From: Hyphomicrobiales bacterium
Lineage (GTDB): Bacteria; Pseudomonadota; Alphaproteobacteria; Rhizobiales; Rhizobiaceae
Length of the DNA stretch: 64,000 nucleotides
Reading direction: 5' to 3'
NCBI GenBank assembly: GCA_900469625.1
Contig: UBXV01000013.1
Coordinates: 62,001 to 126,000, forward strand
Position numbers and translations under genes: made by a program. Position 1 is the stretch's first letter. Every line of letters begins with the position of its first letter. This document shows, in pieces, positions 6,592 through 62,582 of the stretch. The notes under the pieces were generated by a model. It did not search any database, was not told the origin of the DNA, and saw nothing but the letters and a program-made list of their open reading frames with translations.

Positions 6592-7614
6592 ATGGCATCG
6601 ACGCCGCTCGCCCTCTTCGTCGGGCTTCCCAATCCCACACTCTCGAACGACGAGTTCGCGCTCTTTCGCGAAACCAATCCGCTCGGCCTGTTCGTCGGCC
6701 GCCGCAACCTGCGCGAACCCGGTCAGGTCAAGGTCCTGATCGAACGCTTTCGCGAGGCGGTCGGCCGTGAGGACGCGCCCGTCTTCACCGACCAGGAAGG
6801 TGGTCGCGTGCAGCATCTCGACGCCGGTCCCTGGCCGCTTTTCCGCAGCTTCGGCCAGTTTGCCGAGCTTGCCCGCCACGACCTCGATCTCGGCCGCAAG
6901 GCGCTGCGTCTGTCGTCGCAGGCCATGGGCACGATGATGACCGAACTCGGGCTGACCAGCGGCTGCTCGCCGGTTCTCGACCTCGTCTTCGAAACGACCA
7001 GCTCGGTCATCGGCGCACGCTCCTTCGGCTCGGATCCCGACTTCATCGCCGCGCTTGGTCGCGAAGTGGTCGACGGCCTGCTCGAGACCGGCAATATGCC
7101 GGTCATGAAGCACATTCCCGGCCATGGCCGCGCGACACGCGATTCCCACAAGGAACGTCCCGTCGTCGACGCATCGCGCGAAACGCTCGAAGCAACCGAT
7201 TTCAAGCCCTTCGTCGCCCTCAAGGACACGCCCTGGGCGATGGTCGCCCACGTCGTCTACTCCGCCTATGACACCGAGCTGCCGGCCTCCATCTCGCCGA
7301 CCATGCACGAGGTTATCCGCAAGGACATGGGCTACGAGGGCGTGCTGGTCTCGGACTGCATCTTCATGGAATCGCTGCGCGGCACCTTGCCGGAGCGCGT
7401 GAAGCAGGTTCTCGACGCCGGCTCCGACATCGCACTCCACAGCCACGGCGACCTGGCCGAGAGCGAGGCGGCTGCCAAGGCAGCGCGTCCGCTGACGGCA
7501 GACGCACAGAAGCGCATTGCCGCCGGCCAGAGCCGGATCGGCAAACTCAAGGTCGACGTTCGCGCCGCGCACGCCGAAGTCGAAGACATGTTCAAGAGCG
7601 TTCTCGTCGCCTGA
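6592..7614 (+). CDS. Glycoside hydrolase family 3, NagZ-type beta-N-acetylhexosaminidase
   Basis: 340 residues, about the size of single-domain NagZ. NagZ enzymes remove N-acetylglucosamine from muropeptides or chitin fragments, usually in the cytoplasm; no signal peptide is present here. Visible motifs are DQEGGRV (67-73), the acid/base loop KHIPGHG (173-179) followed by DSH (184-186), and VSDCIFME with the nucleophile aspartate at about 255. The KHxPGHG...DSH loop distinguishes NagZ-type from beta-glucosidase-type GH3. It sits between the acetyltransferase and an Opp/Dpp-type importer, which suggests cleavage of imported amino-sugar oligomers or muropeptides. This is probably not the housekeeping cell-division NagZ copy. 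Confidence 0.88.
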   Translation: MASTPLALFVGLPNPTLSNDEFALFRETNPLGLFVGRRNLREPGQVKVLIERFREAVGREDAPVFTDQEGGRVQHLDAGPWPLFRSFGQFAELARHDLDLGRKALRLSSQAMGTMMTELGLTSGCSPVLDLVFETTSSVIGARSFGSDPDFIAALGREVVDGLLETGNMPVMKHIPGHGRATRDSHKERPVVDASRETLEATDFKPFVALKDTPWAMVAHVVYSAYDTELPASISPTMHEVIRKDMGYEGVLVSDCIFMESLRGTLPERVKQVLDAGSDIALHSHGDLAESEAAAKAARPLTADAQKRIAAGQSRIGKLKVDVRAAHAEVEDMFKSVLVA

Positions 7615-48997: not shown

Positions 48998-50347
48998 GTG
49001 CTGAAGTTCCGTTTCGTTTTTCTTGCGGCGTTGCAGCTGCTGGCTTTCGCCGGCTTCGCGATGCTCGTCACCGGCGCGCAAGCGGCCGAAAAGCAGGAAC
49101 TGGTGATCGTCACCTCCTACCCGCCATCGTTCTTCGAGCCGTTCCGGCGGGCATTCGAGACCGCCAACCCCGATATCCGCCTGGCGATCATTCAGCGCAA
49201 CACAGCCAGTGCGACGCGCTTCGTGATCGAGAAGGCCGATGTGCCGGCCGACATCTTCTGGGCCTCGGCCGCAGACGCATTCGAACTCCTGAAGCGCAGC
49301 GGCGAATTGCGGCCGATCGCGCCGCGCCACACGGGCGCTGCCGAAAAGGTGTTCGGCTACCCCGTCAACGATCCGCAGGGCTATTATCTGGGCTTTGCGC
49401 TCTCCGGATATGGTTTCGTCTACAACCAGTCCTACCTTGCCCAGAACAAGCTGCCCGTGCCGCAGGGCTGGCAGGACCTTCTGCACCCTGTCTATTCCGG
49501 CCAGATCGGCATCACCACGCCGTCGCGATCGGGCACCACCCATCTGATCGTCGAGGCGCTGCTGCAGACCTATGGCTGGGAAAAGGGCTGGGCAATGCTG
49601 TCGCAGCTCGGCGGCAACCTGTCGACCGTCACCGCGCGCAGTTTCGGTGTCGCCTCAGGCGTCGCCCAGAGGCGCTTCGGCATCGGCATCACCATCGACT
49701 TCCTCGCCAATGCGCCCGAATTCGCCGACGCGGGCAACGTCTTCATCCTGCCGCCCGACACGGTGTTCGTGCCGGCGAGCATCGCGATCCTGTCGCGGGC
49801 GCGCAATGTTCCCGCCGCCGAACGCTTCGTCGATTTCGTTTTGTCCGAAGAAGGACAGAAGGTGCTGTTGCTTCCGGCCGTCTCCCGCATTCCGGTCAAC
49901 CCGGATCTCAACAAGGGCCTGCTGCCCGAGGAGAGCGGCGACGGGCTGTTGAAATACAGCGGCTTCGACGCGGCTCTGTCGGCGCGCCGTTATGGTCTCG
50001 TCAATCTGATCTTCGACGATTATATCGTGCGCCGCCGGGCGACGCTTGCCCGGCTCTGGAAGAGGGTGACGGATCTGGAAGCGATCGAGATCGAGGACGC
50101 GCAGCAGCGCAGCATGCTGGCAAGAGCCCGGCGCCTGCTCGCCACCCCGCCGCTTTCGGCAAGCGAAGTGGAAAACGCCGACGATGCGCTGAAGGCCGAG
50201 TGGCCGCGCAGCATTGCCCGCTCGCCCAAGCACACCGCGCTGACGCAGAGGCTGCGCGCCACGATCGAGCGCAATCTGGCAACGGCGGAAATGCTCCTGT
50301 CCCCGGTCGCACGACCAGCAGCAGAGCTGACGCCATGGCGGCAATGA
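48998..50347 (+). CDS. PgtC-like periplasmic binding protein of a sensing system
   Basis: 449 residues from GTG 48998; start moderately sure (weak RBS). Signal peptide about 1-30. It belongs to the same binding-protein group as the transport protein at 53851: both have YPVNDxxGYYxGFAxSGYG and PSRSGTTHLxxExxLQ. A C-terminal extension of about 100 residues is rich in charged helices. Its gene is coupled to a sensor-kinase gene, overlapping it by 13 bases, exactly the layout of Salmonella pgtC-pgtB-pgtA, where PgtC works in signal perception for phosphoglycerate uptake. I infer that it binds a ligand outside and signals to the kinase rather than serving transport. Confidence 0.8.
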   Translation: MLKFRFVFLAALQLLAFAGFAMLVTGAQAAEKQELVIVTSYPPSFFEPFRRAFETANPDIRLAIIQRNTASATRFVIEKADVPADIFWASAADAFELLKRSGELRPIAPRHTGAAEKVFGYPVNDPQGYYLGFALSGYGFVYNQSYLAQNKLPVPQGWQDLLHPVYSGQIGITTPSRSGTTHLIVEALLQTYGWEKGWAMLSQLGGNLSTVTARSFGVASGVAQRRFGIGITIDFLANAPEFADAGNVFILPPDTVFVPASIAILSRARNVPAAERFVDFVLSEEGQKVLLLPAVSRIPVNPDLNKGLLPEESGDGLLKYSGFDAALSARRYGLVNLIFDDYIVRRRATLARLWKRVTDLEAIEIEDAQQRSMLARARRLLATPPLSASEVENADDALKAEWPRSIARSPKHTALTQRLRATIERNLATAEMLLSPVARPAAELTPWRQ

Positions 50348-52251
50348 TGCAGCAGTCGACGGCGGCTGCACCCAGTGCGCGTCCCTGGCGCTTCGGCATC
50401 GGCGCGCGCCTTGTCCTCGCCTTCGTCGCGATCGTCGGGCTCGCCGTCGGCGCCTGCCTTGTCGGCTGGCTGTCCTATGAGCGGCTGTCGGGAGAGCTGT
50501 CGCGCATTGCCGAAGACCAGATGCCGCAGCTCGCCTTCGCCTCGCGGTTGTCGAAGGCGGGCGCCGACATCGGCTCGGTCACGACGGTGCTCGCCGGCGC
50601 CGAAACCCGTGCCGAATATAACGAGATCCGCAGCAGCTACGCAGCGCGCCTCACCACCTTGCGCGCCCTGCTCAAGGAAAACGACACGAAATCGGATGCG
50701 ACCGAGCTCCTGCCGCTTGCCGAAGCGATCGGCGAGAACCTCGACAAGATCGACCTTGCGGCCGGCAAACGCTTCACGCTCAGGGAGGCCATGCGTTCCG
50801 ACATCGACGAGTTGCGCTGGGTTCAGGCGGACCTGCTCGAGGAAGCCGACCCGCTCGTCGACGATATCCGCTTCAACATCGAGGCGGAAACCCGCAACGG
50901 AGACGGGGCGGCAGCGCTCGCCGAGCAGCAGAAGAGCGAGGCGTTGCTGACGGCCGTATCGCAGGCAAATCTCGCTACCGGTCTGATCGGCCGGCTCGTC
51001 AACGCCACCACGCAGGAGGAGATCCAGGAAACCAACGCGTTTCTCGGCGACAGTGCCGACGAACTGGCAAGCCGGATCGCCAGCCTGGAAAACTGGCCCG
51101 ACAGCATTACGGTCCGACAGCTGGCAAACCGCATTCTCGACCAGTCCGCGGTCGCGACAGGCATTCCCAATCGCAAACGCTCGGAGATGATCGAGGCGGA
51201 GAAACTCTCGGAGCTTGCCAGCCAGAACGGGCGGCTTGTGGACGATCTTGCGCGCCGGATCGAAACCGAGGTCGTGGCGATCGAGGCCAGCGCCGCAGCG
51301 GCAGCCAAACGCGCCGCCGCAGCAATTGAAACCGGGCGCAGCCTGCTGGTCGCCATCGCCATCCTCTCAGTGCTTTTGGCAAGCGCGATCGGCTTCTTTT
51401 ATGTCTACCGCAACCTGCTCGCCCGCATCCGGCTTCTTTCGGCCGCTGCCGGCGCGATCAGCAGCGGGCGTCCGGCAACGGCGATCCCGGCAGCCGAGGC
51501 GGACGAACTCGGCGATCTCGCCCACGCGCTGGTGCTCTTCCGCCAGACACGCGACGAACTGATCCAGTCGGCAAAACTCGCCGCCCTCGGCCAGATGGCG
51601 GCCGGCATCGGTCATGAGCTCAACCAGCCGCTGGCCGCCCTCCGGGCGCATATCCACAGCGCGACGACGCTGATCGGTCGCGGCAAGGGGGACCAGGCGG
51701 TCGGCAATCTCGACAAGATGAAGGGACTGACCGGGCGCATGGCCGACCAGATCAGCCATATAAGACGCTTCGCCCGCCGTCCGGACGCGCAGCTGCGGCC
51801 CGTCGACCTGACGGCTGCCGTGCGCGATGCGCTGAGCCTGCTGGAACATCGCTTCGACGAGGAAGCGGTCGAATTGCAACTGAGCCTGCCCGGCAATGCC
51901 CCCGTGATGGTCATGGCCGAACCCGTGCGGCTCGAACAGGTGGCGGTCAATCTTCTCGGCAATGCGCTCGACGCGATCAGGGACAGGCCCGAGCGGCGCG
52001 TCAGCGCAACCATCGAACAGACCGGCGCCGAAGCGCGGCTGATCATCGGCGACACCGGCGAAGGCATCGCCGCCCACGACGTTGGTGCGGTCTTCGATCC
52101 GTTCTTCACCACCAAGCCCGTCGGCTCCGGCCTCGGGCTCGGGCTTTCCATTTCCTACAACATCATCAAGGACTTCGGCGGCGAGATCACGATCCTTGAA
52201 ACCGGTGCGCACGGAACGCAGTTCCTCGTATCCCTGAAAGGCCCGCAATGA
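50335..52251 (+). CDS. PgtB-like membrane sensor histidine kinase
   Basis: 638 residues from ATG 50335. First membrane helix about 23-46, a long periplasmic part of about 285 residues that is mostly helical, second helix about 336-358, a HAMP-like segment (RNLLARIRLLSAAAGAISSG) and then the kinase core. The phosphorylated histidine is H427 in AAGIGHELNQPLAALRAH. Nucleotide-binding boxes: NLLGNALDAI, IGDTGEGIAAHD, FFTTKPVGSGLGLGLSIS. The GHELNQPLAALRAH form groups it with DctB-type kinases, which pair with sigma-54 activators. Overlaps the regulator gene by 4 bases. Confidence 0.9.
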   Translation: MAAMMQQSTAAAPSARPWRFGIGARLVLAFVAIVGLAVGACLVGWLSYERLSGELSRIAEDQMPQLAFASRLSKAGADIGSVTTVLAGAETRAEYNEIRSSYAARLTTLRALLKENDTKSDATELLPLAEAIGENLDKIDLAAGKRFTLREAMRSDIDELRWVQADLLEEADPLVDDIRFNIEAETRNGDGAAALAEQQKSEALLTAVSQANLATGLIGRLVNATTQEEIQETNAFLGDSADELASRIASLENWPDSITVRQLANRILDQSAVATGIPNRKRSEMIEAEKLSELASQNGRLVDDLARRIETEVVAIEASAAAAAKRAAAAIETGRSLLVAIAILSVLLASAIGFFYVYRNLLARIRLLSAAAGAISSGRPATAIPAAEADELGDLAHALVLFRQTRDELIQSAKLAALGQMAAGIGHELNQPLAALRAHIHSATTLIGRGKGDQAVGNLDKMKGLTGRMADQISHIRRFARRPDAQLRPVDLTAAVRDALSLLEHRFDEEAVELQLSLPGNAPVMVMAEPVRLEQVAVNLLGNALDAIRDRPERRVSATIEQTGAEARLIIGDTGEGIAAHDVGAVFDPFFTTKPVGSGLGLGLSISYNIIKDFGGEITILETGAHGTQFLVSLKGPQ

Positions 52252-53588
52252 CGGTGGACCCGGATATCATCCTGATCGACGACGATGCCAGCGTGCTTGA
52301 AGCCTGCTGCCAGGTGCTTGAACTCGAGGACTTCAGCGTCGCGCCGCATGGTTCGGTGACATCAGCGCTAGCGGGCCTGCGCGCCGACAGCCGCGCCGTC
52401 ATCGTCTCCGACGTGCGCATGCCGGACCATGACGGCTTCGATCTGGTTGCCGCCGTGCGCAAGATCGACCAGGATATTCCGATCATCCTGATGTCGGGCC
52501 ATGGCGACGTGCCGATGGCGCTTCGTGCGATGCGCGACGGGGCTTGGGATTTCCTCGAAAAGCCCGCCGACCCGGTCCATCTCATCGAGACCGTTCGCCG
52601 CGCCCGCGACCATCGGCGCCTGCTTCTCGAAAACCGGCGGCTGCGGCTGTCGGTGGACGACGATGGCTGGGAAACGCGGCTGATCGGGCATTCCGCCCCC
52701 ATTGTTGCGCTGCGCGAAAAGCTGAAGCGCATTGCGGCAGCAGCGACCGACGCCCTCATCATCGGCGAGACCGGCACCGGCAAGGAAGTGACGGCGCGCG
52801 CGCTCCACGACTTCAGCGGCCGCAAGGGGCGGTTCGTCGCGGTCAATTGCGGCGCCATTCCCGAAACGATGCTTGAATCCGAACTCTTCGGGCATGAGGC
52901 CGGCGCCTTTACCGGCGCGCGCGAAAAACGCATCGGCAAGATCGAATACGCCGATGGCGGTACGCTGTTCCTGGACGAGATCGAATCGATGCCGCTCGCC
53001 GCGCAGGTGCGGCTGCTGCGCGTGCTGCAGGAGCGCGTCATCGAAAGGCTCGGCTCCAATGTCGAGCTGCCGGTCGACATGCGCGTCGTGGCGGCAACCA
53101 AGGCGGATCTGCATGCGGCAGCCCGGAAGGGCGATTTTCGCGAAGACCTGGCCTACCGTCTCGACATCGCCCGCGTGGAGCTGCCGCCGCTTTCCCAACG
53201 CAAGGGCGACGTCGGCCTCCTGTTCCAGCACTTCCTCGGGCTCGCCGCCAAAAGGCAGGGCCGCACGCCGCCGCGGGTGAGCGCCGAACTGCTGGCCGAA
53301 CTCGATGGCAGGCCATGGCCGGGCAACGTGCGCGAGTTGCGCAACGTCGCCGAGCGCTTCGTGCTCGGGCTGGAGGATCGCGACGATGGCGACCGGCCAA
53401 CGGCGAGCGGCGAGACGCTGGAGGTACAGATGGATCGGCTGGAGCGCGCCATCCTGCTGGACAGTCTCGCCCGAAACGACGGCCGCATCGGCGCGACCGC
53501 GGATGCGCTCGGTATCTCCCGCAAGACGCTCTACCTCAAGATGCGCAAGTTCGACATCGCCGCCCAGACCGATGGCGACGCCGGCTAG
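52248..53588 (+). CDS. PgtA/DctD-like sigma-54-dependent response regulator
   Basis: 446 residues. Receiver domain about 5-120 with phospho-acceptor D55 (IVSDVRMPDHDGFDL) and conserved K105. AAA+ domain with Walker A GETGTGKE at 173-180, the sigma-54-contact loop GAFTGA at 219-224 and Walker B GGTLFLDEI. C-terminal Fis-type HTH (LARNDGRIGATADALGISRKTLYLKMRKF). It should bind the tandem repeats at 53688-53739 and activate the sigma-54 promoter at 53781, directly downstream of its own gene. Confidence 0.93.
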   Translation: MTVDPDIILIDDDASVLEACCQVLELEDFSVAPHGSVTSALAGLRADSRAVIVSDVRMPDHDGFDLVAAVRKIDQDIPIILMSGHGDVPMALRAMRDGAWDFLEKPADPVHLIETVRRARDHRRLLLENRRLRLSVDDDGWETRLIGHSAPIVALREKLKRIAAAATDALIIGETGTGKEVTARALHDFSGRKGRFVAVNCGAIPETMLESELFGHEAGAFTGAREKRIGKIEYADGGTLFLDEIESMPLAAQVRLLRVLQERVIERLGSNVELPVDMRVVAATKADLHAAARKGDFREDLAYRLDIARVELPPLSQRKGDVGLLFQHFLGLAAKRQGRTPPRVSAELLAELDGRPWPGNVRELRNVAERFVLGLEDRDDGDRPTASGETLEVQMDRLERAILLDSLARNDGRIGATADALGISRKTLYLKMRKFDIAAQTDGDAG

Positions 53589-53687
53589 AGCATTTCCAGG
53601 AAAAGTGCGGAGCGGTTTTCCGTCAGGAAATGCGTAAAGACAGAGACACAGAGCGTTTCTGTGTTTCCGCCAAAACGGAAATGCTCT
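53587..53687. repeat. Rhizobial palindromic intergenic repeat
   Basis: Begins at the stop codon of the response-regulator gene. Outer arms AGAGCATTTCC (53587-53597) and GGAAATGCTCT (53677-53687) are perfect inverted repeats; inside lie further inverted words such as GGAAAA/TTTTCC and AGAGCGTTTC. The word order matches mosaic intergenic repeats I recognise from rhizobial genomes. It may also act as a transcript end for the regulator operon. Confidence 0.75.
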
Positions 53688-53739
53688 GATGTTACCGGTT
53701 TGACCCCGCCCCCTGGGGCAGATGTTACCGTTTTTACCC
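53688..53739 (+). promoter_or_regulatory. Tandem enhancer-like repeats (two copies)
   Basis: Copy 1 GATGTTACCGGTTTGACCCC at 53688-53707; copy 2 GATGTTACCGTTTTTACCC at 53721-53739. The starts are 33 bases apart, about three helical turns, so both sites face the same side of the DNA. They lie 42-93 bases upstream of the sigma-54 promoter, a usual place for activator sites. The encoded DctD-like regulator is the obvious candidate protein. Confidence 0.75.
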
Positions 53740-53780
53740 ATTCCGCCGAAAAGATCGCTGGTATCCGGGGATTCTCAAAC

Positions 53781-53796
53781 TGGCACGGCGCTTGCT
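53781..53796 (+). promoter_or_regulatory. Sigma-54 (-24/-12) promoter of the importer operon
   Basis: TGGCACGGCGCTTGCT matches the consensus TGGCACG-N4-TTGCW at every position. The start site would fall near 53808, about 43 bases before the ATG of the binding-protein gene. Downstream of two enhancer-like repeats and of the gene for a sigma-54 activator. Confidence 0.93.
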
Positions 53797-53850
53797 CCCA
53801 TTGGGTCGGACACCAGACAAGCGGTGTCCCTATTGGGAGGAGATACCTAT

Positions 53851-55170
53851 ATGTTGAAGACCATTGCTGCGGCGATGCTGATGTCGGCTGCCTTCGTTGT
53901 GACGGTTCACGCCCAGGACGGCGGAAAAGTCACGATCGTCACGTCGTTTTCCAAGGACGTGACCGATCCGTTCAAGGCCGGTTTCGAGGCCGCAAATCCC
54001 GGCTTTACCCTTGATGTCCAGAACAAGAGCACCAGCTCGGGCGTCAAGTACATCGACGAGACCAAGGTGAACAACCAGGTCGATCTGTTCTGGGCATCGG
54101 CGCCCGACGCGTTCGACAGCCTGAAGAGCCGCGAACTTCTGGCCAAGTTCACGCCTTCGGTCACCGGCCTGCCCGAAAAGGTCGGCTCCTACCCCGTCAA
54201 CGACAAGGACGGCTACTACTTCGGCTTTGCCGCGTCCGGTTACGGCATCATGTCGAACGACCGTTATCTTGAGGCCAACGACCTGCCGAAGCCGGTCGAG
54301 TGGAGCGACCTGACCAAGCCGGAATACCATGACCACATCGCGATCGCAGCACCCTCGCGTTCGGGCACGACCCATCTGACGATCGAGACTATCCTGCAGG
54401 GCGAAGGCTGGGACAAGGGCTGGGCGACGCTGAAGGGCATCGGCGGCAACCTGCAGCAAGTGACCGAGCGCTCCTTCGGCGTTCCTGACGCCGTCAACTC
54501 CGGCCAGACCGGCATCGGCATCGTCATCGACTTCTTCGCCTTCTCGGCGCAGGCAAGCGGCTTCCCTGTTTCCTTTGCCTATCCGTCGGTCACAACAGTC
54601 GTTCCGGCCAACATCGGCATCGTTGCCAATGCACCGAACCAGGCTGGCGCCGAAGCCTTCGTCAACTACCTGCTTTCGGAAAAGGGCCAGGCCGTCCTGC
54701 TCGAGCCGGCGATCCGTCGCCTGCCGATCAACCCTGCCCTCTACGAAAAGGCGCCTGAAGGCTTCCCGAACCCCTTCAAGGACCCGCGCTTCCAGTCGAT
54801 GATCACGTTTGACAGCGACGTTTCGAAGAAGCGCACCGATGTCGTCGATACGCTCTACGATCAGCTGATCTCGTTCCAGCTCGACAACATCAAGGGCGCG
54901 ACCAAGGCGATCCACGAAGCGGAAAAGGCCGTTGCCGCCAACGAGCAGGCAGCCGCCCGCGCACTGTTGACGGAAGCCCACGCGCTGATCGCCGCCATGC
55001 CGATCACGGCGGAAGAAGCGGCCAGCCAGCAGGTCCGCGACGCCTTTACCGGCGGCGAGGAAAAGACCGCCCGCCAGGCCGAGCTCGAGCAGAAGTGGGC
55101 TGCCTTTGCGAGCGAGAAGTACGCCGCTGCCAAGGCCAAGGCCGAAGAGGCGCTCGCCCTCGTCGACTAA
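53851..55170 (+). CDS. ABC importer binding protein, AfuA-like (probable phosphate-ester or sugar-phosphate ligand)
   Basis: 439 residues from ATG 53851 with GGGAGGAG upstream. Signal peptide ends at VHAQD near 22. It resembles proteins often called iron(III)-binding (AfuA/FbpA), but AfuA proteins of enteric and Pasteurella relatives bind sugar phosphates. Paralogue of the protein at 48998. The C-terminal 120 residues form an Ala/Glu-rich helical tail (KAIHEAEKAVAANEQAAARA) shared with that paralogue. Control by a sigma-54 promoter and the PgtBA-like pair suggests induction by the ligand. A hairpin follows the stop codon. Confidence 0.87.
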   Translation: MLKTIAAAMLMSAAFVVTVHAQDGGKVTIVTSFSKDVTDPFKAGFEAANPGFTLDVQNKSTSSGVKYIDETKVNNQVDLFWASAPDAFDSLKSRELLAKFTPSVTGLPEKVGSYPVNDKDGYYFGFAASGYGIMSNDRYLEANDLPKPVEWSDLTKPEYHDHIAIAAPSRSGTTHLTIETILQGEGWDKGWATLKGIGGNLQQVTERSFGVPDAVNSGQTGIGIVIDFFAFSAQASGFPVSFAYPSVTTVVPANIGIVANAPNQAGAEAFVNYLLSEKGQAVLLEPAIRRLPINPALYEKAPEGFPNPFKDPRFQSMITFDSDVSKKRTDVVDTLYDQLISFQLDNIKGATKAIHEAEKAVAANEQAAARALLTEAHALIAAMPITAEEAASQQVRDAFTGGEEKTARQAELEQKWAAFASEKYAAAKAKAEEALALVD

Positions 55171-55183
55171 CACCGGCTCAAGA

Positions 55184-55208
55184 GGCCGCCTGCTATCCGC
55201 GGGCGGCC
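55184..55208 (+). promoter_or_regulatory. Hairpin between binding-protein and permease genes
   Basis: GGCCGCCTGC-TATCC-GCGGGCGGCC, a 10-bp stem with one T-G wobble, 14 bases after the stop of the binding-protein gene and 175 bases before the permease start. Third case in this window of a hairpin at this place in an ABC operon. Confidence 0.65.
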
Positions 55209-55382
55209 ATTCCCGAAAACATTTGCCTTCGCCAAGCCTGACGCGCCTGCCTGGCGGCTCTTGCGGACCGAACCGGTCCGGGAGCCATCGTGCAGCAGCG
55301 AGCGTTGCTGCGCCCTCGCGATCCTGAAGCGCGGGGCGAGCAAGGCGCATCAGGCTTGTCGATCACAATCCGGAGTCCGCCC

Positions 55383-57092
55383 ATGGCGCTCGTTCAATCC
55401 ATTCCCATAAGACGCGTCTCGGCCAAGCCCGGACAGATCTTCGCAATCGCGCTGATCGCGCTTTTCCTTGCAATCTTCCTGATCATCCCGGCCGGAACGG
55501 TCATCTACACCGCCTTCACCGAGAAGGGCACCGGCGCGCTGACGATCGTGAACTTCGTCGATTTCTTCAACACGGACCTGTTCCGGCGCTCGTTCTTCAA
55601 TTCCGTCTACGTCTCCGGCATGTCGGTCGTCTGGGCGACCGCCATCGCGCTCCCGCTGGCGGTCCTGACCACCCGCTTCGATTTCCGTGGCTCGCTGATC
55701 ATCCAGACGCTCGGTTTCGTGCCGCTGATCATGCCGCCCTTCGTCGGAGCGGTCGCCATGCAGCTGCTCTTCGGCCGCAACGGCACCGTCAACCTGATCC
55801 TCAACGACTGGTTCGGCATCCGCATTCCCTTCATGGAAGGGCTGAACGGCGTGATCTTCGTGCAGTCGCTGCACTATTTCCCCTTCATCCTCATCAACCT
55901 GTCGACCAGCCTGCGCAACATCGACCGCTCGATGGAGGAAGCCGCCCAGAACCTCGGCTCGTCGGGCGTCCGGCTGTTTCGCCGCATCGTCTTCCCGCTG
56001 GCCATGCCCGGCTACCTCGCCGGCGCCTCACTGGTCTTCGTCAAGGTTTTCGACGACCTGGCGACACCGCTGCTTCTCAACGTCAAGGACATGCTGGCGC
56101 CGCAGGCTTACCTGCGCGTTACCTCGGTCGGCCTCACCGATCCCATGGGTTATGTCATCTCGGTCATCCTGATCGCGGTCTCGATCTTCGCCATGTGGCT
56201 GTCAGCCGTCGCCATGCGCGGCAAGGATTATTCGACGACGCAGCGCGGTGGCGGTGGCCTTTCCCGTCGCAAGCTCAGCCGCGGCGAAAGCGTCATTGCC
56301 TATGGCGTCGTCGGCCTGATCCTGCTGCTCGTGCTGTCGCCGCATATCGGCCTTTTGCTGCTGTCGCTTGCGACCGTCTGGTCGTTCAGCCCGCTTCCCG
56401 ATGCCTATACGGTCGCCCATTACGGCCGCGTCTTCGGCGAGAGTTCGCTCTACATCAAGAACACGCTGATCTATGCCAGCCTTGCCGGCCTGATCGACGT
56501 GGTCATCGGCGGCGCGATTGCCTATCTCGTGCTGCGCACCAAGGTCGTCGGCCGCCGCTGGCTCGACTGGGCAGCAACGGCAGCACTCGCCATCCCCGGC
56601 GTCGTGCTCGGCATCGGCTATCTCAGGACGTTCTACGGCATCACGCTGCCCGACGGTACGCCGCTTGCAACCCTCTGGGTGATGGTGGTGCTTGCGCTTG
56701 CCATCCGCCGGCTGCCCTATGCGCTCAGGGCCTGCTACGCTGCCCTGCAGCAGGTGTCGGAATCGCTGGAGGAGGCGGCCGAAAACCTCGGCGCCACCAA
56801 GCAGCGGACGATCCGGCGCATCGTGTTGCCGCTGATGACTGGCGGCCTGCTCGCCGGCTTCGTTACCAGCTTCTCGACGGCCGCCGTCGAGCTGTCGGCA
56901 ACCCTGATGCTGATCCAGAGCAACTCGGACGCACCGATCGCCTACGGGCTCTACGTCTTCATGCAATCGCCGGCGGGTCGTGGCCCGGGCGCTGCCCTCG
57001 GCGTCATCGCCGTGATCATGGTCGCGCTCTGCACCCTGCTCTCGCACTACGTCATCGAGCGTCGCCAGAAGGCGCTCGGCGTGACGAAATAG
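55383..57092 (+). CDS. ABC importer permease, two-domain FbpB/AfuB type
   Basis: 569 residues from ATG 55383. About twelve helices in two homologous halves (about 25-275 and 315-560). Each half has an EAA loop: SMEEAAQNLGSSGVRLFRRI and SLEEAAENLGATKQRTIRRI. A fused permease of this form pairs with one ATPase homodimer. The frame opens at 55290, but those 31 codons lie in the spacer after the hairpin. Partner of the ATPase 19 bases downstream. Confidence 0.93.
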   Translation: MALVQSIPIRRVSAKPGQIFAIALIALFLAIFLIIPAGTVIYTAFTEKGTGALTIVNFVDFFNTDLFRRSFFNSVYVSGMSVVWATAIALPLAVLTTRFDFRGSLIIQTLGFVPLIMPPFVGAVAMQLLFGRNGTVNLILNDWFGIRIPFMEGLNGVIFVQSLHYFPFILINLSTSLRNIDRSMEEAAQNLGSSGVRLFRRIVFPLAMPGYLAGASLVFVKVFDDLATPLLLNVKDMLAPQAYLRVTSVGLTDPMGYVISVILIAVSIFAMWLSAVAMRGKDYSTTQRGGGGLSRRKLSRGESVIAYGVVGLILLLVLSPHIGLLLLSLATVWSFSPLPDAYTVAHYGRVFGESSLYIKNTLIYASLAGLIDVVIGGAIAYLVLRTKVVGRRWLDWAATAALAIPGVVLGIGYLRTFYGITLPDGTPLATLWVMVVLALAIRRLPYALRACYAALQQVSESLEEAAENLGATKQRTIRRIVLPLMTGGLLAGFVTSFSTAAVELSATLMLIQSNSDAPIAYGLYVFMQSPAGRGPGAALGVIAVIMVALCTLLSHYVIERRQKALGVTK

Positions 57093-57111
57093 AATTTCGG
57101 GAGGAACAATC

Positions 57112-58212
57112 ATGACTGTCAACATCAACAGCACGGCACTCGCTGCCAGCCCCGCGAAGGCGATCAGCATCAGCGACGTCAATCTGTACTACGGCGCCCT
57201 TCACGTGCTGAAGGACATCAACCTCGAGATACAGCCGGGCGAATTCTTCGCCTTTCTCGGACCGTCCGGCTGCGGCAAGACCACGCTTCTCCGGCTGATC
57301 GCCGGCTTCAATGAAGCCCGGCAGGGCAAGGTCGTGATCGGCGGGCAGGACGTGCTCGACATGCCGCCATGGAAGCGGGACATCGGCATGGTGTTCCAGT
57401 CCTATGCACTCTGGCCGCACATGACGGTTGCCGCCAATGTCGCCTTCGGACTGGAGGAACGTCGCCTGCCCCGTGCGGAGGTCGAGCGTCGGGTTCAGGC
57501 CGCCCTCGAGCTGGTCGGATTGAAACATCTCGCCGACCGTCGCCCGTCGCAGCTGTCCGGCGGGCAGCAGCAGCGCGTGGCCTTGGCGCGCACCATCGCC
57601 ATCGAACCGAAGGTGCTTCTGCTGGACGAACCGCTTTCCAACCTCGACGCCAAGATGCGCGTCGAGGTCCGCCGCGAGCTGCGCGACCTGCAGCAGCGAC
57701 TGAAGCTGACGACGATCTTCGTTACCCACGACCAGGAAGAGGCCAATACCGTCTGCGATCGCATCGCCGTTTTCAACGAAGGGCGCATCCAGCAGGTCGG
57801 CACACCGATGGGGCTCTACGAAAAGCCCGCCAACCTGTTCGTCGCCAACTTCCTCGGTACGGCCAATATCCTCGACGGCACCGTTTCCGGTTCCGGCGCG
57901 CAGCGCAGCTTCGAGGTGAAGGGCGCAGGCTCCATCCCGATCCCGGAGGGCGCGTCAGTGCCTGCGGGCGCAAAGCTGGTCTTCCGGCCGCAATATGCGA
58001 CGTTGGGCACGCTGGAGCCGGGCGCCGTCGCCCTTACCGGCACAATCGCCCATCGCGAGTTCCTCGGCGCCACCGTGCGTTATGGGGTGCAGGTCGGCAC
58101 GGCGACCGTGCTGATCGATGCGCCGTTCCACTCGGGCGAAACCCTGCTTGAAACAGGTGCCACGACGACGCTCGGCCTCAAGCCGTCTTCGGCGCTCTGG
58201 CTTTCCGAATAA
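57112..58212 (+). CDS. ABC importer ATPase, FbpC/PotA type
   Basis: 366 residues from ATG 57112 with GGGAGGA upstream. Walker A GPSGCGKTT near 53-61, Q-loop VFQSYALWPHMTV, signature LSGGQQQRVALARTIA, Walker B LLLDEPLSNLDA, H-loop FVTHDQEEA and a C-terminal TOBE domain (LVFRPQYATLGTLEPGAVAL). Completes the importer. A hairpin (58221-58248) follows 8 bases later. Confidence 0.93.
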   Translation: MTVNINSTALAASPAKAISISDVNLYYGALHVLKDINLEIQPGEFFAFLGPSGCGKTTLLRLIAGFNEARQGKVVIGGQDVLDMPPWKRDIGMVFQSYALWPHMTVAANVAFGLEERRLPRAEVERRVQAALELVGLKHLADRRPSQLSGGQQQRVALARTIAIEPKVLLLDEPLSNLDAKMRVEVRRELRDLQQRLKLTTIFVTHDQEEANTVCDRIAVFNEGRIQQVGTPMGLYEKPANLFVANFLGTANILDGTVSGSGAQRSFEVKGAGSIPIPEGASVPAGAKLVFRPQYATLGTLEPGAVALTGTIAHREFLGATVRYGVQVGTATVLIDAPFHSGETLLETGATTTLGLKPSSALWLSE

Positions 58213-58220
58213 TCGAGCAG

Positions 58221-58248
58221 TCACCCGCCGGCCATTTCCGGCGGGTGA
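58221..58248 (+). terminator. Hairpin after the ATPase gene
   Basis: TCACCCGCCGG, a 6-base loop and CCGGCGGGTGA, 11-bp perfect stem. It has no T-run, so it may be a weak terminator or a 3'-end stabiliser between the importer and the phosphatase gene 48 bases further on. Confidence 0.6.
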
Positions 58249-58296
58249 CCCACCTTCGTCAATTCCGGCCCGAGGCCGCAGTCTTTCGAGCATGCC

Positions 58297-58956
58297 ATGA
58301 CATCCCCCCTGCCAAACATCATCCTCATCCGCCACGGCGAAACCCAGTGGAACGTCGCTGGCCGGCTGCAAGGCCGAAAGGACACGCCGCTGACCGCAAA
58401 CGGCGTGCGCCAGGCGCTCGCAGTCGGCCTCAGGCTGGCGGAAAGAATTGCCACCGAGACGAAGCTCGCGTTTTGGGTCAGCCCGCTCGGGCGCGCACGC
58501 CAGACGGCCTCGATTCTCGCAGACATCTGGTCCGTCCCCTTCGAGGAGTTTACCCACGACCAGGCGCTGGTGGAGCGGTCCTACGGCTCCTGGGAGGGCC
58601 GCGCCCACGACGAGATCGAGCGGGATCTGCCGGATGAATACGAGTCTCAGAACGCCGAGCCCTGGGACTACGCCATGCCCGGCGGCGAAAGCCGCACGAT
58701 GCTCGACGCCCGGCTGATCGCCTGGCTCGCGACGCTCGATCGCGACAAGACCCATGTGGTCGTCACCCATAGCGGCTGCGTGCGCGCCCTGCGTGGTATC
58801 TATACCAAGGCATCCCGCGCGGAGATCCTTGCCTACCGCGAACCGCAGACGGCGTCCTTCCTGCTGTCATCAGGCAATGAGACCATGATCGGCATTCCGC
58901 TCACCATCCTGCGCGCGCTCGGCTGCGAAGGCGAGGGTCGGACTGTCTGGATCTGA
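58297..58956 (+). CDS. Histidine phosphatase (phosphoglycerate-mutase-like) family protein
   Basis: 219 residues. The catalytic motif LIRHGETQWNVAGRLQGRKD holds the phospho-histidine (RHG, about H13). WVSPLGRARQTASIL, ERSYGSWEGRA and VVTHSGCVRALRG carry the remaining arginine, glutamate and second histidine. Cytoplasmic, of GpmB/CobC size. It is 84 bases downstream of the importer ATPase on the same strand. If the importer takes up phosphate esters, this enzyme could dephosphorylate them inside the cell. Alternatively it is an unrelated housekeeping phosphatase. Confidence 0.87.
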   Translation: MTSPLPNIILIRHGETQWNVAGRLQGRKDTPLTANGVRQALAVGLRLAERIATETKLAFWVSPLGRARQTASILADIWSVPFEEFTHDQALVERSYGSWEGRAHDEIERDLPDEYESQNAEPWDYAMPGGESRTMLDARLIAWLATLDRDKTHVVVTHSGCVRALRGIYTKASRAEILAYREPQTASFLLSSGNETMIGIPLTILRALGCEGEGRTVWI

Positions 58957-59282: not shown

Positions 59283-62200
59283 CTAGAACCGAACCTTCAG
59301 CCGTGCGTTGACGCCGTGATCGGACACGCCCGACCCGACCTGGCCGGAATAATTCACGCCCAGCGTCGCTGAAGGTGCGATGTTGAAATCGACACCAGCT
59401 TCGACAATGGCCGCGTCCCTGGCGATCGGCGCGCCTGCAACGGTGAAGGCATCGCCACCCGAAAAGGCCAGGGCCGAGGTCGGGATGACGTCGCCGAAGG
59501 CATGCCGCCAGCCGACCGTGCCGCGCATCGTCGCCACCGTTTCGCCGAAGGCGACGTCGCGCGAAGCCCGCAGACCGATGGTCGTGAAGGTCGCATCGCT
59601 GTGATCCGCTGCACCTCCAAGTGCTGCGGCGCCGCCACCCTCCTTGAACGCATCCGTATCGAGGTTGAGGTAAGCCAGATTGGCGAAACCTTCGAAGCCG
59701 AAGGGACCGGCTTCCATCGCATAGCTCGCTTCCCCGAAGAGCTGCGCGGTCCGCGCGTCATAGACAGCCGACAGGGCATCTTCGAAACCGGGGAAAAGCA
59801 CGCTTCTCGACGTTTCGATCCGGTGCCAGCTATGGGTTGCTCCCGCCGTCAGCGACAACGCGCCGATCTGCGTGCCGGCGTGAACGCCGATATGGTAGTT
59901 CTCGCTGTCGCCGGAGGAGCGGCGATCGGCAGCATCGAAGTTCGAGCGGCTATAGCCGCCTGCAAGGCCGAGACGCCACGTGTCGCCGACGAGGCCGTCC
60001 ATGCCGGCGAGGAAGCCGCTGGTATTGCGATCGAAGGCCGCGGCATTGTCATTGCCATCCGTGTCGCCCCAGGTGCCGAAGGCCTGGCTCCAGAAAGCGA
60101 AGCGGTCCGTATCCGGCGCTACGCTTTCAATGCCGCCCTCGCCATAGGCAAGCACCGGCGTCGTCTTGCCATGGTCGTCGCCGAAGGCCGAGCGGATGCG
60201 ATTGATGGCAACATCCCGCAGCAACAGACCGTCCTGCAGCAGCATGCCCTTCACCGAGCTGTGGATTTCGCCGGAGAGCTGGTCGAAGGCCAGGGGAGCT
60301 GCCGTCTTGTCGAGATTGATGACCGCCGCATAGGCGGCATTGGCAAAGCCGAGGCTGTCTGCGCCGGCCGCTGCGGCTTTCTGGTTGGCCGTGACCGCGA
60401 CATCGTCGAAGCGGATGTCGTTGCGGCTGAGTGTGAGGGTGACGTCATTGGCGCCATAGGCAAGCGTCGGGTCGAGGAACGCGAGGCTGGAGGCGACGTC
60501 GGCGAACGTTCCCGACACACCGCCATCCGCCGACAGGATCTTGTAGGCCGTCTGTGGCGCGTAGGCGTTGCCGCTCGCCAAGGCCAGCACGGAACCGCCA
60601 TTGAGGATCGCCTTGCCGGTCGCCGCGATCCGGTCGCTCTCGCCCTTTTCGTTGGCCTCGACATGATAGGCCGAGCCGGCAGCGAAGGTGATGTCGCCGG
60701 TGACGTTCAGCGTGCCGATCGAGTTACCAGGCGCAATCACGCCGCCGTTTGCGACCGTCAGACTGCCGAAGGAGCCGACACCGCCGATGGTACCACCGGT
60801 CTCGACGACGAGCTTGGAGGACGACGCGATCGAGCCCTGGACCGACAGCAGGCCGGATTTGACCACGGTCTCGCCGGTGTAGGTGTTCTGGCCGGAAAGA
60901 ACCAAAGCGCCCGCACCGAGCTTGGTCAGGCTTCCCGCCCCGGTGATCGCCCGCTCGATCGCCAGGACATTCTGCGCATCGGCAATGTCGAACGAACCGC
61001 CTGCGCCTTCGAGCACCACGTCACGGTTGAGCAGGTGCATGTCCCGCCCGGTGACCCTGAGCCCGCCGCCGTCGAGCCGCAGCTTGGCGTCGGCATTGCC
61101 GAGTGCCGCATCCTCATTGACGATCACCGTGCCGCCGTCGGCAACACGCGTCTCGCCGATGAAGGAATGGTCGTCGATGCAATAGTCGCGGATCGCCTGC
61201 TGGAAGCGCGGGTCGGCGCTGGCGCAGTCGAGCAAGGTCTTCTTTTCCGTGTCGGTCAGTCCGGCAAGGATCGGCAGGCCGTTCTCGTCGGAGATCTGTC
61301 CGAGATAGACATCGTTGCGCATGTTGTTGCGGCTGAGGACGAATTCCTTGCCCTTCTCGGCGAAGGTGGAAGCCTTCTCGCCCCAGACGACACGCGTCTT
61401 GGCGGCTGCCGACCCGGGATCGGTGTAGGTTTCGAGCACCGGCCCCACCCAGCGCAGCGTGTGGGCGACGGGCTCGTGGTCGGACAGCGGCGTCTTCGAA
61501 CCGTCTGGGTTGGTCACGTAGCTGACATCGGTGATGACGCCGGAATAGGGATCGTTCGGGTCGTCGTTGATCGTCCACCACTTGCCGAACGGTCGCGATG
61601 CCAGGAAATGGTCGATCTTGACGCGGTGCCAGCTCGCCCAGACGTTGGTCGCGTCTTCGCCGTGGGATGGCCACGTCACGCTGCCGTCGTTCAGGCCGTG
61701 CGGGGTAAACTGTTCGCGCTCACTCGGAAGCTGTAGCAGCTGGTACTGTTTCTTCAGGATGTTCATCGTCTGCGGCAGGTTGCCAGCGACAGGATACATC
61801 TCGTCGGCAAAAAGCCCGGTGGGCACGGTCGAAGCGTTGATAGCCGATGCGGACTTGCCCTTCCATTGCGCGATATAGGCATCGAGGGCCTGCTGGTCCT
61901 TCGCATATTCGCGCAGCAGGCCGAGATAGAAGGTGTTGCTCGGGCTCTTTACATAGGTCTTCAGCAACAGCTCCTGCTGGCTGATCGAATGCAGGCCGCG
62001 CTCAGAGACGTCGCCGGCGTTGAAGTCGCCGGTTAGGATCACTGGCCGGGTCTCGCCCTTGGCCCACTTGTTCAGGCCCTTGGCCTCCTCGATGCGGTTG
62101 GTGGCCGGGTCGTAGTAGTTGAGATGCGTGGTGCCGACCACGGTCTGCGGCTTGCTGACCGTCGGGTCGACGACGGTAAAGGTCGCGATGTCGCCAAGCG

Positions 62201-62582
62201 TGTTGACGCCGTAGGTGCCGGGCAGCCGCGAAAACACCCCGACATCTCCGTCCTGGCGCGTGCCGTAGGTGCCGAGCCCTGCGTTTTTCAGGATGCCTGG
62301 AATGTCGCGGGCATAGGTGCTGTTGGCCCTGAATTCCTGGAAGGTCAGGATGTCGTAGTTACCCTTGATGAAGAAATCCGACATCACGCTCGGATTGGCC
62401 TTGAACCGATCCAGCCAGGTGTTGAGCGTCAGGATCTTCATGCTGTCGTCCGCAGCCCCGGCACTTGCCGCCGAAAGGGCAAGGCTGGTGCCGCACAGAA
62501 GAAGCGCCGTCGCCAGGCGTAGCGGCTGCCGCAGGCGCGCGAAAGCCGCCACCCCGCGGATGTCATGTCCACGTTGTCTCAT
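59283..62582 (-). CDS. Autotransporter with EEP (endonuclease/exonuclease/phosphatase) passenger domain
   Basis: 1099 residues from ATG 62582 (GGAG 8 bases upstream). Signal peptide with long basic N-region, ending near ASAGA (43). The EEP domain spans about 48-378 with all active-site motifs: LTLNTW (N54), FQEF (E83), TTHLN (H153), TGDFNAG (D186, N188), RVKIDHF (D324, H325) and LSDHEPV (D368, H369). A cysteine pair near 460-475 and a beta-helix with the autotransporter repeat KLGAGALVLSGQNTYTGETV near 553-572 follow. The barrel is about the last 270 residues, ending KVRF. EEP enzymes cut phosphodiesters (DNA, RNA, lipids) or phosphomonoesters; here the enzyme would act at the cell surface. 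Substrate unknown. The barrel and linker closely resemble those of the S8 autotransporter. Confidence 0.92.
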   Translation of the reverse strand: MRQRGHDIRGVAAFARLRQPLRLATALLLCGTSLALSAASAGAADDSMKILTLNTWLDRFKANPSVMSDFFIKGNYDILTFQEFRANSTYARDIPGILKNAGLGTYGTRQDGDVGVFSRLPGTYGVNTLGDIATFTVVDPTVSKPQTVVGTTHLNYYDPATNRIEEAKGLNKWAKGETRPVILTGDFNAGDVSERGLHSISQQELLLKTYVKSPSNTFYLGLLREYAKDQQALDAYIAQWKGKSASAINASTVPTGLFADEMYPVAGNLPQTMNILKKQYQLLQLPSEREQFTPHGLNDGSVTWPSHGEDATNVWASWHRVKIDHFLASRPFGKWWTINDDPNDPYSGVITDVSYVTNPDGSKTPLSDHEPVAHTLRWVGPVLETYTDPGSAAAKTRVVWGEKASTFAEKGKEFVLSRNNMRNDVYLGQISDENGLPILAGLTDTEKKTLLDCASADPRFQQAIRDYCIDDHSFIGETRVADGGTVIVNEDAALGNADAKLRLDGGGLRVTGRDMHLLNRDVVLEGAGGSFDIADAQNVLAIERAITGAGSLTKLGAGALVLSGQNTYTGETVVKSGLLSVQGSIASSSKLVVETGGTIGGVGSFGSLTVANGGVIAPGNSIGTLNVTGDITFAAGSAYHVEANEKGESDRIAATGKAILNGGSVLALASGNAYAPQTAYKILSADGGVSGTFADVASSLAFLDPTLAYGANDVTLTLSRNDIRFDDVAVTANQKAAAAGADSLGFANAAYAAVINLDKTAAPLAFDQLSGEIHSSVKGMLLQDGLLLRDVAINRIRSAFGDDHGKTTPVLAYGEGGIESVAPDTDRFAFWSQAFGTWGDTDGNDNAAAFDRNTSGFLAGMDGLVGDTWRLGLAGGYSRSNFDAADRRSSGDSENYHIGVHAGTQIGALSLTAGATHSWHRIETSRSVLFPGFEDALSAVYDARTAQLFGEASYAMEAGPFGFEGFANLAYLNLDTDAFKEGGGAAALGGAADHSDATFTTIGLRASRDVAFGETVATMRGTVGWRHAFGDVIPTSALAFSGGDAFTVAGAPIARDAAIVEAGVDFNIAPSATLGVNYSGQVGSGVSDHGVNARLKVRF

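Follow-up and report, generated by a model that had tools for sequence, protein, structure and literature searches.

In Salmonella, PgtC, PgtB and PgtA control PgtP, the carrier for 3-phosphoglycerate, as described in the available part of PMC11077982. For the binding protein AfuA of the AfuABC importer, mutation of each of His205, Asp206 and Glu229 abolished binding (PMC4546632, available part), and P5PA, which shares the fold, is a binding protein for pyridoxal phosphate (PMC8427247, available part). In Staphylococcus, according to a partial account, HptA-HptS-HptR also places a phosphate-ester carrier under two-component control that responds to the substrate outside the cell. HptA is a sensor of the solute-binding protein (SBP) type, and the kinase TorS likewise works with a binding protein, TorT.

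Gene cluster and its conservation

The window analysed here, i.e., the whole stretch of 64,000 nucleotides, stems from a soil bacterium and contains a seven-gene cluster in exactly the order given by the sequence-only reading: binding protein (SBP1), sensor kinase (HK), sigma-54 response regulator (RR), second binding protein (SBP2), fused permease, ATPase and histidine phosphatase (Table 1). With the ATG start that we chose for HK, the gene overlaps the end of SBP1 by 13 bases, and the HK/RR junction is an ATGA overlap. We regard the cluster, with a probability of roughly 60%, as a self-contained sense-import-dephosphorylate operon, in which a regulated ABC importer takes up small phospho-carboxylates, phosphoglycerate or PEP for instance.

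Table 1. Features of the cluster, whose seven genes, all on the + strand, span positions 48998–58956 of the window.
Feature	Position	Strand	Details
SBP1, sensing binding protein, PgtC-like	48998..50347	+	SBP_bac_6; GTG start; Sec-type N-terminus by eye
HK, sensor histidine kinase, PgtB-like, TorS-like helical sensor region	50335..52251	+	HAMP/HisKA/HATPase_c
RR, NtrC-type sigma-54 response regulator with GAFTGA, PgtA-like	52248..53588	+	Response_reg + Sigma54_activat + HTH_8
Upstream box 1, GTTACC-N4-TGACCC, candidate RR site	53691..53706	+	
Upstream box 2, GTTACC-N4-TTACCC, 33 bp from box 1	53724..53739	+	
Sigma-54 promoter TGGCACGGCGCTTGCT, 12/12 match	53781..53796	+	genome-wide pattern search
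SBP2, transport binding protein	53851..55170	+	SBP_bac_6; 42% to SBP1
Strong RNA hairpin directly 3' of SBP2	55184..55208	+	-24.9 kcal/mol over the 60-nt stretch, z -3.45
Fused permease, two BPD_transp_1 stretches	55383..57092	+	
ABC ATPase	57112..58212	+	ABC_tran + TOBE_2
Histidine phosphatase, branch 1, RHGE motif, THSG motif further downstream	58297..58956	+	His_Phos_1

In the mechanism that we propose, SBP1 would bind a small phosphorylated carboxylate in the periplasm, most likely phosphoglycerate, PEP or phosphoglycolate, and would dock on the TorS-like helical bundle of HK, which in turn would phosphorylate RR. Binding of RR to the two tandem GTTACC-N4-TGACCC boxes would switch on the -24/-12 promoter before SBP2 by activating sigma-54 RNA polymerase there. 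The ester would then be imported by SBP2, the fused permease and the ATPase, and the histidine phosphatase may release phosphate from it in the cytoplasm.

The comparison of gene order that the sequence-only reading had proposed spoke for the cluster: 10 of 15 genomes of the same genus retain the seven-gene order, including one (G015) in which SBP1 is split by an apparent frameshift, and the order recurs in one genome from a different genus of the family (G022; proteins 30–71% identical) and in other families. In 43 of 80 named loci with the permease, the regulators adjoin the importer; 41 of the 80 have the six core genes and 26 have all seven. In 37, some of them on short contigs, the importer stands without regulators in the locus. 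One locus in which the matches to SBP2, permease and phosphatase are split (L128) was counted as regulated and as carrying the phosphatase. Proteins were excluded when their sequence had stops, X or an odd length or when there was more than one match, with 75, 41, 41 and 41 being kept, and the alignments A3, A4, A5 and A7 comprise 40, 25, 23 and 17 chosen sequences rather than the full sets. Judged from the sequences compared, the gene order is conserved beyond chance.

Sensor genes in comparison with the Pgt, Tor and Hpt systems

The likeness of the regulators to PgtCBA, as claimed beforehand, was confirmed, with identities of 30–32% to annotated PgtC, PgtB and PgtA and E values of 3e-44, 4e-42 and 3e-66. 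SBP1, which falls in the sensor group of the binding-protein tree, is 30% identical to plasmid-encoded PgtC from E. coli over 381 positions, SBP2 is 30% identical to PgtC over 387 positions, and HK is 30% identical to PgtB over 535 positions. HK and RR, at 215.7 and 288.7 bits, fell short of the NCBIfam equivalog thresholds of PgtB (1000) and PgtA (650), and no PgtP antiporter is linked at the locus, where the ABC importer stands. A search for PgtB at an E value of 1e-100 or better in 398 genomes of the phylum gave 0 matches, only the E. coli control being found, and pgt genes were not found in the two stretches of UTI89 examined. As in the Pgt system, an SBP-type sensor, a kinase and an NtrC-type regulator are encoded together, and the conserved SBP positions are common to both. 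The presumed target here, however, is an ABC importer that has an SBP of its own and a sigma-54 promoter, and the regulator keeps GAFTGA, whereas the target of the Pgt regulators is an MFS antiporter.

For HK alone, the match to the TorS sensor domain remained below the Pfam cut-off. The best 50 matches listed in a whole-kinase Foldseek search were to kinase cores or to kinases other than TorS. A profile search of the PDB with the sensor region was therefore made, and there TorS came first (E value 6e-4). TorS_sensor_domain was matched by 13 of 17 members of the HK family, and the sensor region is all-helical in the predicted model. The helical-bundle sensor is common to HK and TorS, but TorS is the hybrid kinase of the TMAO system, whereas HK is devoid of a receiver domain. 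HptA-HptS-HptR differs from the present system in its lineage and in controlling UhpT.

Binding-site residues, partner genes and substrate

The predicted model of SBP2 (pLDDT 90.3) has VcA0625, a G6P-binding protein, and AfuA as its nearest solved folds, followed by P5PA; in this search, identities were 22% to AfuA and 20% to P5PA. A structure search with an autotransporter N-terminal part gave no useful match. SBP2 residues R170, S171, G172, T173, H175, R207, S208 and D227 are invariant in 40/40 aligned importer proteins, as are the matching positions in 25/25 aligned sensors, and PgtC retains them except for G172, which is Asp. S171-G172-T173 align with the phosphate-shell residues Ser148-Gly149-Thr150 of AfuA (40/40).

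Of the phosphoglycerate-mutase-like phosphatase described earlier, the phosphatase part stood and the mutase part did not. The protein is a histidine phosphatase of branch 1 (His_Phos_1 with RHG motif and a second His), and it scored below the cut-off of every phosphoglycerate-mutase (dPGM) model listed in NCBIfam. Such a phosphatase was found in 28 of the 43 regulated loci (27 called by similarity, that of L130 by family scan) versus 1 of the 37 others; none was detected in the remaining 15 regulated loci (Bosea, Ancylobacter, Devosia, others). The Mesorhizobium and Microvirga phosphatases are just 35–38% identical.

Taken together, the phosphate-shell residues, the co-occurrence of the phosphatase and the fold neighbours make it likely that the substrate is a phosphate ester, in line with the class named by the sequence-only reading. 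Its assignment to the C2–C3 phospho-carboxylates is evenly balanced.

Partner genes vary between lineages. In Pseudochrobactrum, a pyruvate kinase gene is next in line after the cassette, this link to the ABC form being confined to one genus. In Vibrio fluvialis and Plesiomonas, pyruvate kinase genes are neighbours of PgtP-like MFS carriers that occur together with PgtC/A relatives. Phosphoglycolate-phosphatase-type genes join the cassette in Microvirga, Chelatococcus and a Lysobacteraceae MAG. These pyruvate kinase and phosphoglycolate-phosphatase-type neighbours speak for the phospho-carboxylate reading. A PNPOx-family gene adjoins it in Paracoccus denitrificans, and the downstream gene set of Ancylobacter includes a sugar-acid-kinase-type protein, so that ligands may differ between lineages. 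In four loci without regulators, a ThiD-like kinase gene, labelled by sequence reading, is divergent from SBP2; the neighbours listed for the regulator-less loci offered no consistent substrate clue.

The PNPOx-family and ThiD-like genes, along with the binding of pyridoxal phosphate by P5PA (PMC8427247, available part), would fit an importer for another phosphorylated compound, i.e., pyridoxal phosphate, a phosphorylated sugar acid or lineage-specific esters. We consider this unlikely, since the conserved positions are identical across all aligned sequences and, by our matching of residue numbers, the P5PA ring contact His203 is replaced by Ile in SBP2, at the position of AfuA His205. What SBP2 has in common with P5PA is the fold and the phosphate shell.

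A hexose-phosphate importer of the AfuABC kind under a borrowed Pgt-like regulator, for which the nearest solved folds (VcA0625 and AfuA) and the conserved phosphate-shell SGT might be adduced, is quite improbable. Of the AfuA sugar contacts His205, Asp206 and Glu229, each essential there according to the available part of PMC4546632, only Asp206 is kept in SBP2 (Asp227), with Ile226 replacing His205 and a gap beside Val250 replacing Glu229, again by our matching of residue numbers. Position 226 is Ile and position 250 is Val, Ile or Leu in 40/40 sequences. Moreover, SBP2 is nearer to PgtC (30%) than to AfuA (22%), and although both systems have the SBP fold and an ABC importer, SBP2 is longer (439 residues versus 321 in the AfuA chain), and its C-terminal part is helical. 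The earlier designation of the importer as AfuABC-like was abandoned on these grounds.

Import of ferric iron is highly improbable. Four of the public records examined label the importer an iron transporter ('iron ABC transporter permease'), and FbpA and FutA are members of the fold family of SBP2. However, the Tyr-Tyr pair with which ferric binding protein binds iron, and its counterpart in FutA1, align with Phe228-Phe229 of SBP2, Phe228 being invariant (40/40), and the phosphatase partners and the kinship with PgtC also argue against iron. With two AfuA sugar contacts and the ferric Tyr pair missing, the importer is neither an AfuABC nor an iron importer by those tests. A 2-aminoethylphosphonate importer (PhnS2/U2/T2), among the best NCBIfam names, was rejected at 113, 153 and 382 bits against cut-offs of 393, 593 and 458.

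Should the phospho-carboxylate reading be true, the cassette would provide regulated high-affinity scavenging of phosphorylated C2–C3 acids in a large alphaproteobacterial group.

Promoter, upstream boxes and regulation

The exact pattern TGGCACGNNNNTTGCW occurs 4 times in the 6.54-Mb genome versus 2 times for the reversed control, and one of the four -24/-12 matches sits 54 bases 5' of the SBP2 ATG. Promoter scoring covered 72 of the 80 named loci; six were short of upstream DNA (L097, L109, L118, L120, L124, L133), and two had no scored SBP2 (L096, L126). A match of at least 10/12 was found in 41/41 scored loci with the regulators upstream, which, the loci being mutually related, are not 41 independent events. 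It was also present in the one scored locus with the regulators downstream (1/1) and in 1 of 30 without regulators in the locus. In this exception (L067), SBP1-HK-RR lie ~11 kb upstream of the promoter. The reverse-strand control gave 0/72.

In a second sample, from the class, 16 of the 17 further genomes that gave a match were examined, G222 being left out; two of the 16 loci lie on contigs equal in length to those of L102 and L129, were judged to repeat these and were not counted. The promoter was present in 1/1 locus with regulators and in 0/13 without, absence of regulators referring to the examined stretch.

At least one box was found in 43 of 44 promoter regions and at least two in 29, by a relaxed pattern that had itself been derived from these regions and was used without shuffle control. 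In the genome of the window, the exact box has three matches, two at this locus and the third inside a coding frame; allowing one mismatch gave 17 sites genome-wide versus 28 for the reversed pattern, and thus no enrichment of the box. Box positions step by ~11 bp between lineages, as noted post hoc.

RR and its target combine a receiver, an AAA+ domain with GAFTGA, a Fis-type HTH and a -24/-12 promoter. The promoter and upstream boxes accompany the regulator genes, and the response regulator almost certainly controls the importer, as the sequence-only reading held. That the two are mere neighbours, with the regulator controlling something else, is scarcely credible despite the 37 regulator-less importer loci, given that promoter and boxes track the regulators and that the genome has no second pair of exact boxes. 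With promoter, candidate operator and sensor all defined, the locus is ready for an induction assay.

PgtA in E. coli, Klebsiella and Providencia records is without GAFTGA, the loop that contacts sigma-54, and five gammaproteobacterial upstream regions that were checked had neither a 10/12 promoter site nor a box. Tentatively, we propose that the cassette encodes an ATP-driven importer dedicated to phosphoglycerate, PEP or phosphoglycolate, having paralogous sensing and transport SBPs for the same ligand and a sigma-54 promoter. Enterobacterial PgtABC would then be a derived, sigma-54-independent offshoot that changed its carrier to PgtP. To our knowledge, there is no example of a dedicated ATP-driven importer for these three compounds. 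Neither a description of this cassette nor a paper combining GAFTGA and PgtA was found among the papers listed in literature searches, which covered few subscription journals, and pgtA, AfuA and phosphoglycerate are unmentioned in the main text of a sigma-54 regulon paper (PMC12316311).

Separately, it was observed that the regulator of Paracoccus is without the GAFTGA loop and its importer without a sigma-54 promoter; together with enteric PgtA, this lineage offers a test of how an NtrC-type activator leaves sigma-54.

Gene set, order and occurrence

The cassette comprises seven genes on the forward strand, and a domain search revealed domain content matching their named functions. The reading frames of the sensing binding protein (SBP1), the TorS-type sensor kinase (HK) and the sigma-54 response regulator (RR) each run a few bases into one another, an arrangement typical of translational coupling; a 262-bp gap follows, and then the transport binding protein (SBP2), fused permease and ABC ATPase of the importer, and a histidine phosphatase. 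The genome is 6.54 Mb in size; at this locus, its closest named relatives are Ensifer/Sinorhizobium records, among them Ensifer adhaerens.

The sequence-only reading had proposed a complete sensing, import and dephosphorylation unit at this place, and the gene set it described proved to be real and conserved. A close SBP1 relative (77–93% identity) was found in 10 of 15 same-genus genomes, all ten having the seven genes in identical order, and the same order was found in G022, a genome of a different genus in the same family, at 30–71% protein identity. In genome G015, SBP1 is broken by an apparent frameshift, with the order otherwise kept. In the same-genus genome G013, only a remnant of SBP1 was found (first 75 residues, 73%), with the left neighbours unchanged and followed by an apparent siderophore-type ABC importer, as judged from ORFs; this genome has probably had its cassette replaced.

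Gene order was compared in 80 named loci, each holding a permease of at least 73% identity. The regulators (SBP1, HK and RR) lie beside the importer in 43 of these, upstream in 41 and downstream in two (Devosia); in the remaining 37, the locus has an importer but no regulators. Taxa in which the regulated form occurs include Rhizobium, Shinella, Aminobacter, Mesorhizobium, Pseudochrobactrum, Aureimonas, Microvirga, Chelatococcus, Ancylobacter, Bosea and Devosia, and one Lysobacteraceae MAG. In Rhizobium sp. RCAM05350 (L128), matches to SBP2, permease and phosphatase are each split, reflecting either a frameshifted copy or assembly errors. The importer was also seen at 50–64% identity in two very small alphaproteobacterial genomes of about 1.2 Mb (L185 and L186, from G735 and G608), presumably SAR11-sized, with regulators absent from the stretch read. 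A strong hairpin follows SBP2 (z = −3.45), and this position gave z < −2 in 37 of 75 loci with simple shuffles; it could protect the SBP2 mRNA.

Sigma-54 promoter, upstream boxes and regulator loop

Control of the importer by the regulator, as proposed from the sequence alone, is well supported by the co-occurrence of promoter and regulator genes. In the gap before SBP2, 54 bases ahead of the ATG, TGGCACGGCGCTTGCT is a complete match to the −24/−12 consensus applied; genome-wide, there are four sites with this exact pattern versus two for a reversed control. The 320 bp preceding SBP2 were scored in 72 of the 80 named loci at a threshold of at least 10 of 12 matches. A site was found in 41/41 loci with upstream regulators, 1/1 scored locus with downstream regulators and 1/30 scored loci without regulators in the locus, the loci being related and not independent events; on the reverse strand of these regions, it was found in 0/72. 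The sole promoter-bearing locus among the 30, L067 (Aminobacter ciceronei), has SBP1-HK-RR on the same contig, about 11 kb from the RR end to the promoter. At E 1e-40 or better, the genomes of three other loci that have no adjacent regulators (L085, L106 and L125) gave one match each, at 38–42% identity; since this is the level expected for SBP2 itself, no second SBP1 was found there. In a second sample from the class (387 genomes searched, 16 loci read, two repeats taken out), the sole regulated locus has an 11/12 site, and 0/13 unregulated loci have one, repeats excluded.

The promoter is preceded by a conserved box, in its fullest form GATGTTACC-N4-TGACCCAT, which is commonly doubled with copies 31–34 bp apart. 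A relaxed pattern was present at least once in 43/44 promoter regions and at least twice in 29/44. The exact pattern GTTACCNNNNTKACCC has three sites in the genome, two ahead of SBP2 and the third within a coding frame reading like an AraC-type regulator; with one mismatch allowed, the box is not enriched in the genome (17 versus 28 for the reversed control). Across L057–L130, box-to-promoter spacings appear to cluster near 58, 71, 81, 91, 103, 113 and 124 bp, varying by lineage and stepping by about one helical turn.

RR contains GAFTGA, the loop that contacts sigma-54. In 41 named loci, the loop reads GAFTGA (38), GSFTGA (2) or GAFTNA (1). Five further regulators were compared, those of PgtA type from E. 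coli, Klebsiella and Providencia and the relatives in V. fluvialis and Plesiomonas: GAFTGA was found in 0/5, and neither a 10/12 promoter site nor a box was found in the five upstream regions checked. The cassette, having both loop and promoter, differs in this from enterobacterial PgtABC. The promoter before SBP2 is missing in 3/3 Paracoccus loci: in P. denitrificans and P. zhejiangensis, the regulators lack the loop as well, and P. pantotrophus has no promoter. Maritalea groups with Paracoccus in the tree, yet retains loop and promoter. On the simplest reading of these sequences, sigma-54 dependence would be ancestral and would have been lost together with the promoter more than once, the direction being inferred. 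Maritalea and Paracoccus form a natural pair for this loss.

Coordinates of features in the window and in compared loci
Feature	Record	Position	Strand	Remark
Seven-gene cassette	window	48998-58956	+	
Exact box	window	53691-53706	+	exact GTTACCNNNNTKACCC match
Exact box	window	53724-53739	+	exact GTTACCNNNNTKACCC match
Promoter	window	53781-53796		before SBP2
Hairpin	window	55184-55208		after SBP2
Autotransporter	window	59283-62582	-	convergent neighbour
SBP1 remnant	L054 (G013)	6653-6877		
Natural pair, Maritalea	L143	8775-8940		
Natural pair, Paracoccus	L141, L150, L151	upstream of 8950		
Second ABC importer	L141	1-4214		Paracoccus denitrificans

Binding proteins, ligand site and partner genes

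Compared with annotated pgtC, pgtB and pgtA products of an E. coli plasmid, SBP1, HK and RR showed 30% (381 aligned positions), 30% (535) and 32% (443) identity, respectively, and SBP2 likewise 30% to PgtC (387). A tree of 54 binding proteins, which carries long-branch warnings, placed the importer proteins in one group (support 100/99), sensors of ABC-type systems with Azospirillum in a second (88/85) and PgtC in a third (97/84). By itself, HK matched the TorS sensor domain sub-threshold in Pfam, and 13/17 members of its family matched it (best E 5.6e-12); against solved structures, the family profile ranked TorS first (positions 23-275 of 304, E 6e-4).

The predicted SBP2 model (pLDDT 90.3) has as closest folds VcA0625, titled a G6P-binding protein, the hexose-phosphate binding protein AfuA and the pyridoxal-phosphate binding protein P5PA. 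The phosphate-holding residues of the latter two include a Ser-Gly-Thr, according to an excerpt of PMC8427247; this triplet corresponds to Ser171-Gly172-Thr173 of SBP2. For AfuA, mutation of each of His205, Asp206 and Glu229 abolished sugar-phosphate binding, as stated in part of PMC4546632, the residue numbers of which we matched to the chain. Asp206 is retained in SBP2; in sequence alignments, His205 lies opposite Ile226 and Glu229 opposite a gap next to Val250. The name AfuABC-like, given to the importer in the sequence-only reading, should therefore be changed to PgtC-related with an AfuA fold, not AfuABC, the His205/Glu229 contacts being replaced. The tyrosine pair of ferric binding proteins lies opposite Phe228-Phe229. 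Arg170, His175 and Arg207 are invariant in 40/40 importer binding proteins aligned, as are the matching positions in 25/25 sensors, and are present in PgtC as well. Because these positions are common to both, the sequences suggest one ligand type for sensor and importer alike. In the alignment, Arg207 takes the place of a residue adjoining the AfuA phosphate site and may bind a carboxylate or phosphate.

Downstream of the ATPase, a histidine phosphatase is encoded in 28/43 regulated loci (27 detected by similarity, L130 by family scan) versus 1/37 others, this one being L067; it was not detected in 15/43 regulated loci, mostly of Bosea, Ancylobacter and Devosia. The cassette's phosphatase lies below the cut-off of every phosphoglycerate-mutase model listed, and its best solved-structure match is 1ebb/1h2e, titled just 'phosphatase' and presumably PhoE. 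HAD-phosphatase genes located after the ATPase form a homology cluster that spans eight loci, 7/8 regulated (Microvirga, Chelatococcus and the Lysobacteraceae MAG); the two regulated ones scanned (L081, L130) scored above the NCBIfam phosphoglycolate-phosphatase cut-off TIGR01449, and the unregulated L082 below it. In Pseudochrobactrum, pyruvate kinase is the next gene (51-bp spacing in L069). Vibrio fluvialis and Plesiomonas have relatives of PgtC and PgtA placed opposite an MFS carrier (28% to PgtP), and a pyruvate kinase gene comes after this carrier. In Salmonella, PgtC/B/A control the carrier PgtP. Its substrates are 2-/3-phosphoglycerate and PEP, as given in a portion of PMC10715179. These partner genes and substrates favour a C2-C3 phospho-carboxylate as ligand. 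Two observations count against a single ligand: Paracoccus denitrificans has a PNPOx-family gene, and in Ancylobacter the genes downstream include one for a sugar-acid-kinase-type protein (our label for Pfam SBD_N/NBD_C).

In Paracoccus denitrificans, a second ABC importer lies directly before the cassette, with genes for an inositol-monophosphatase, an RpiR-type regulator and an AphA acid phosphatase. The autotransporter adjoining the cassette combines a beta-barrel with an endonuclease/exonuclease/phosphatase-type domain at its N-terminus (Pfam E 2.8e-11); it could be a surface enzyme releasing phosphate esters for the importer, and the association, also present in L061–L063, was seen only in Ensifer.
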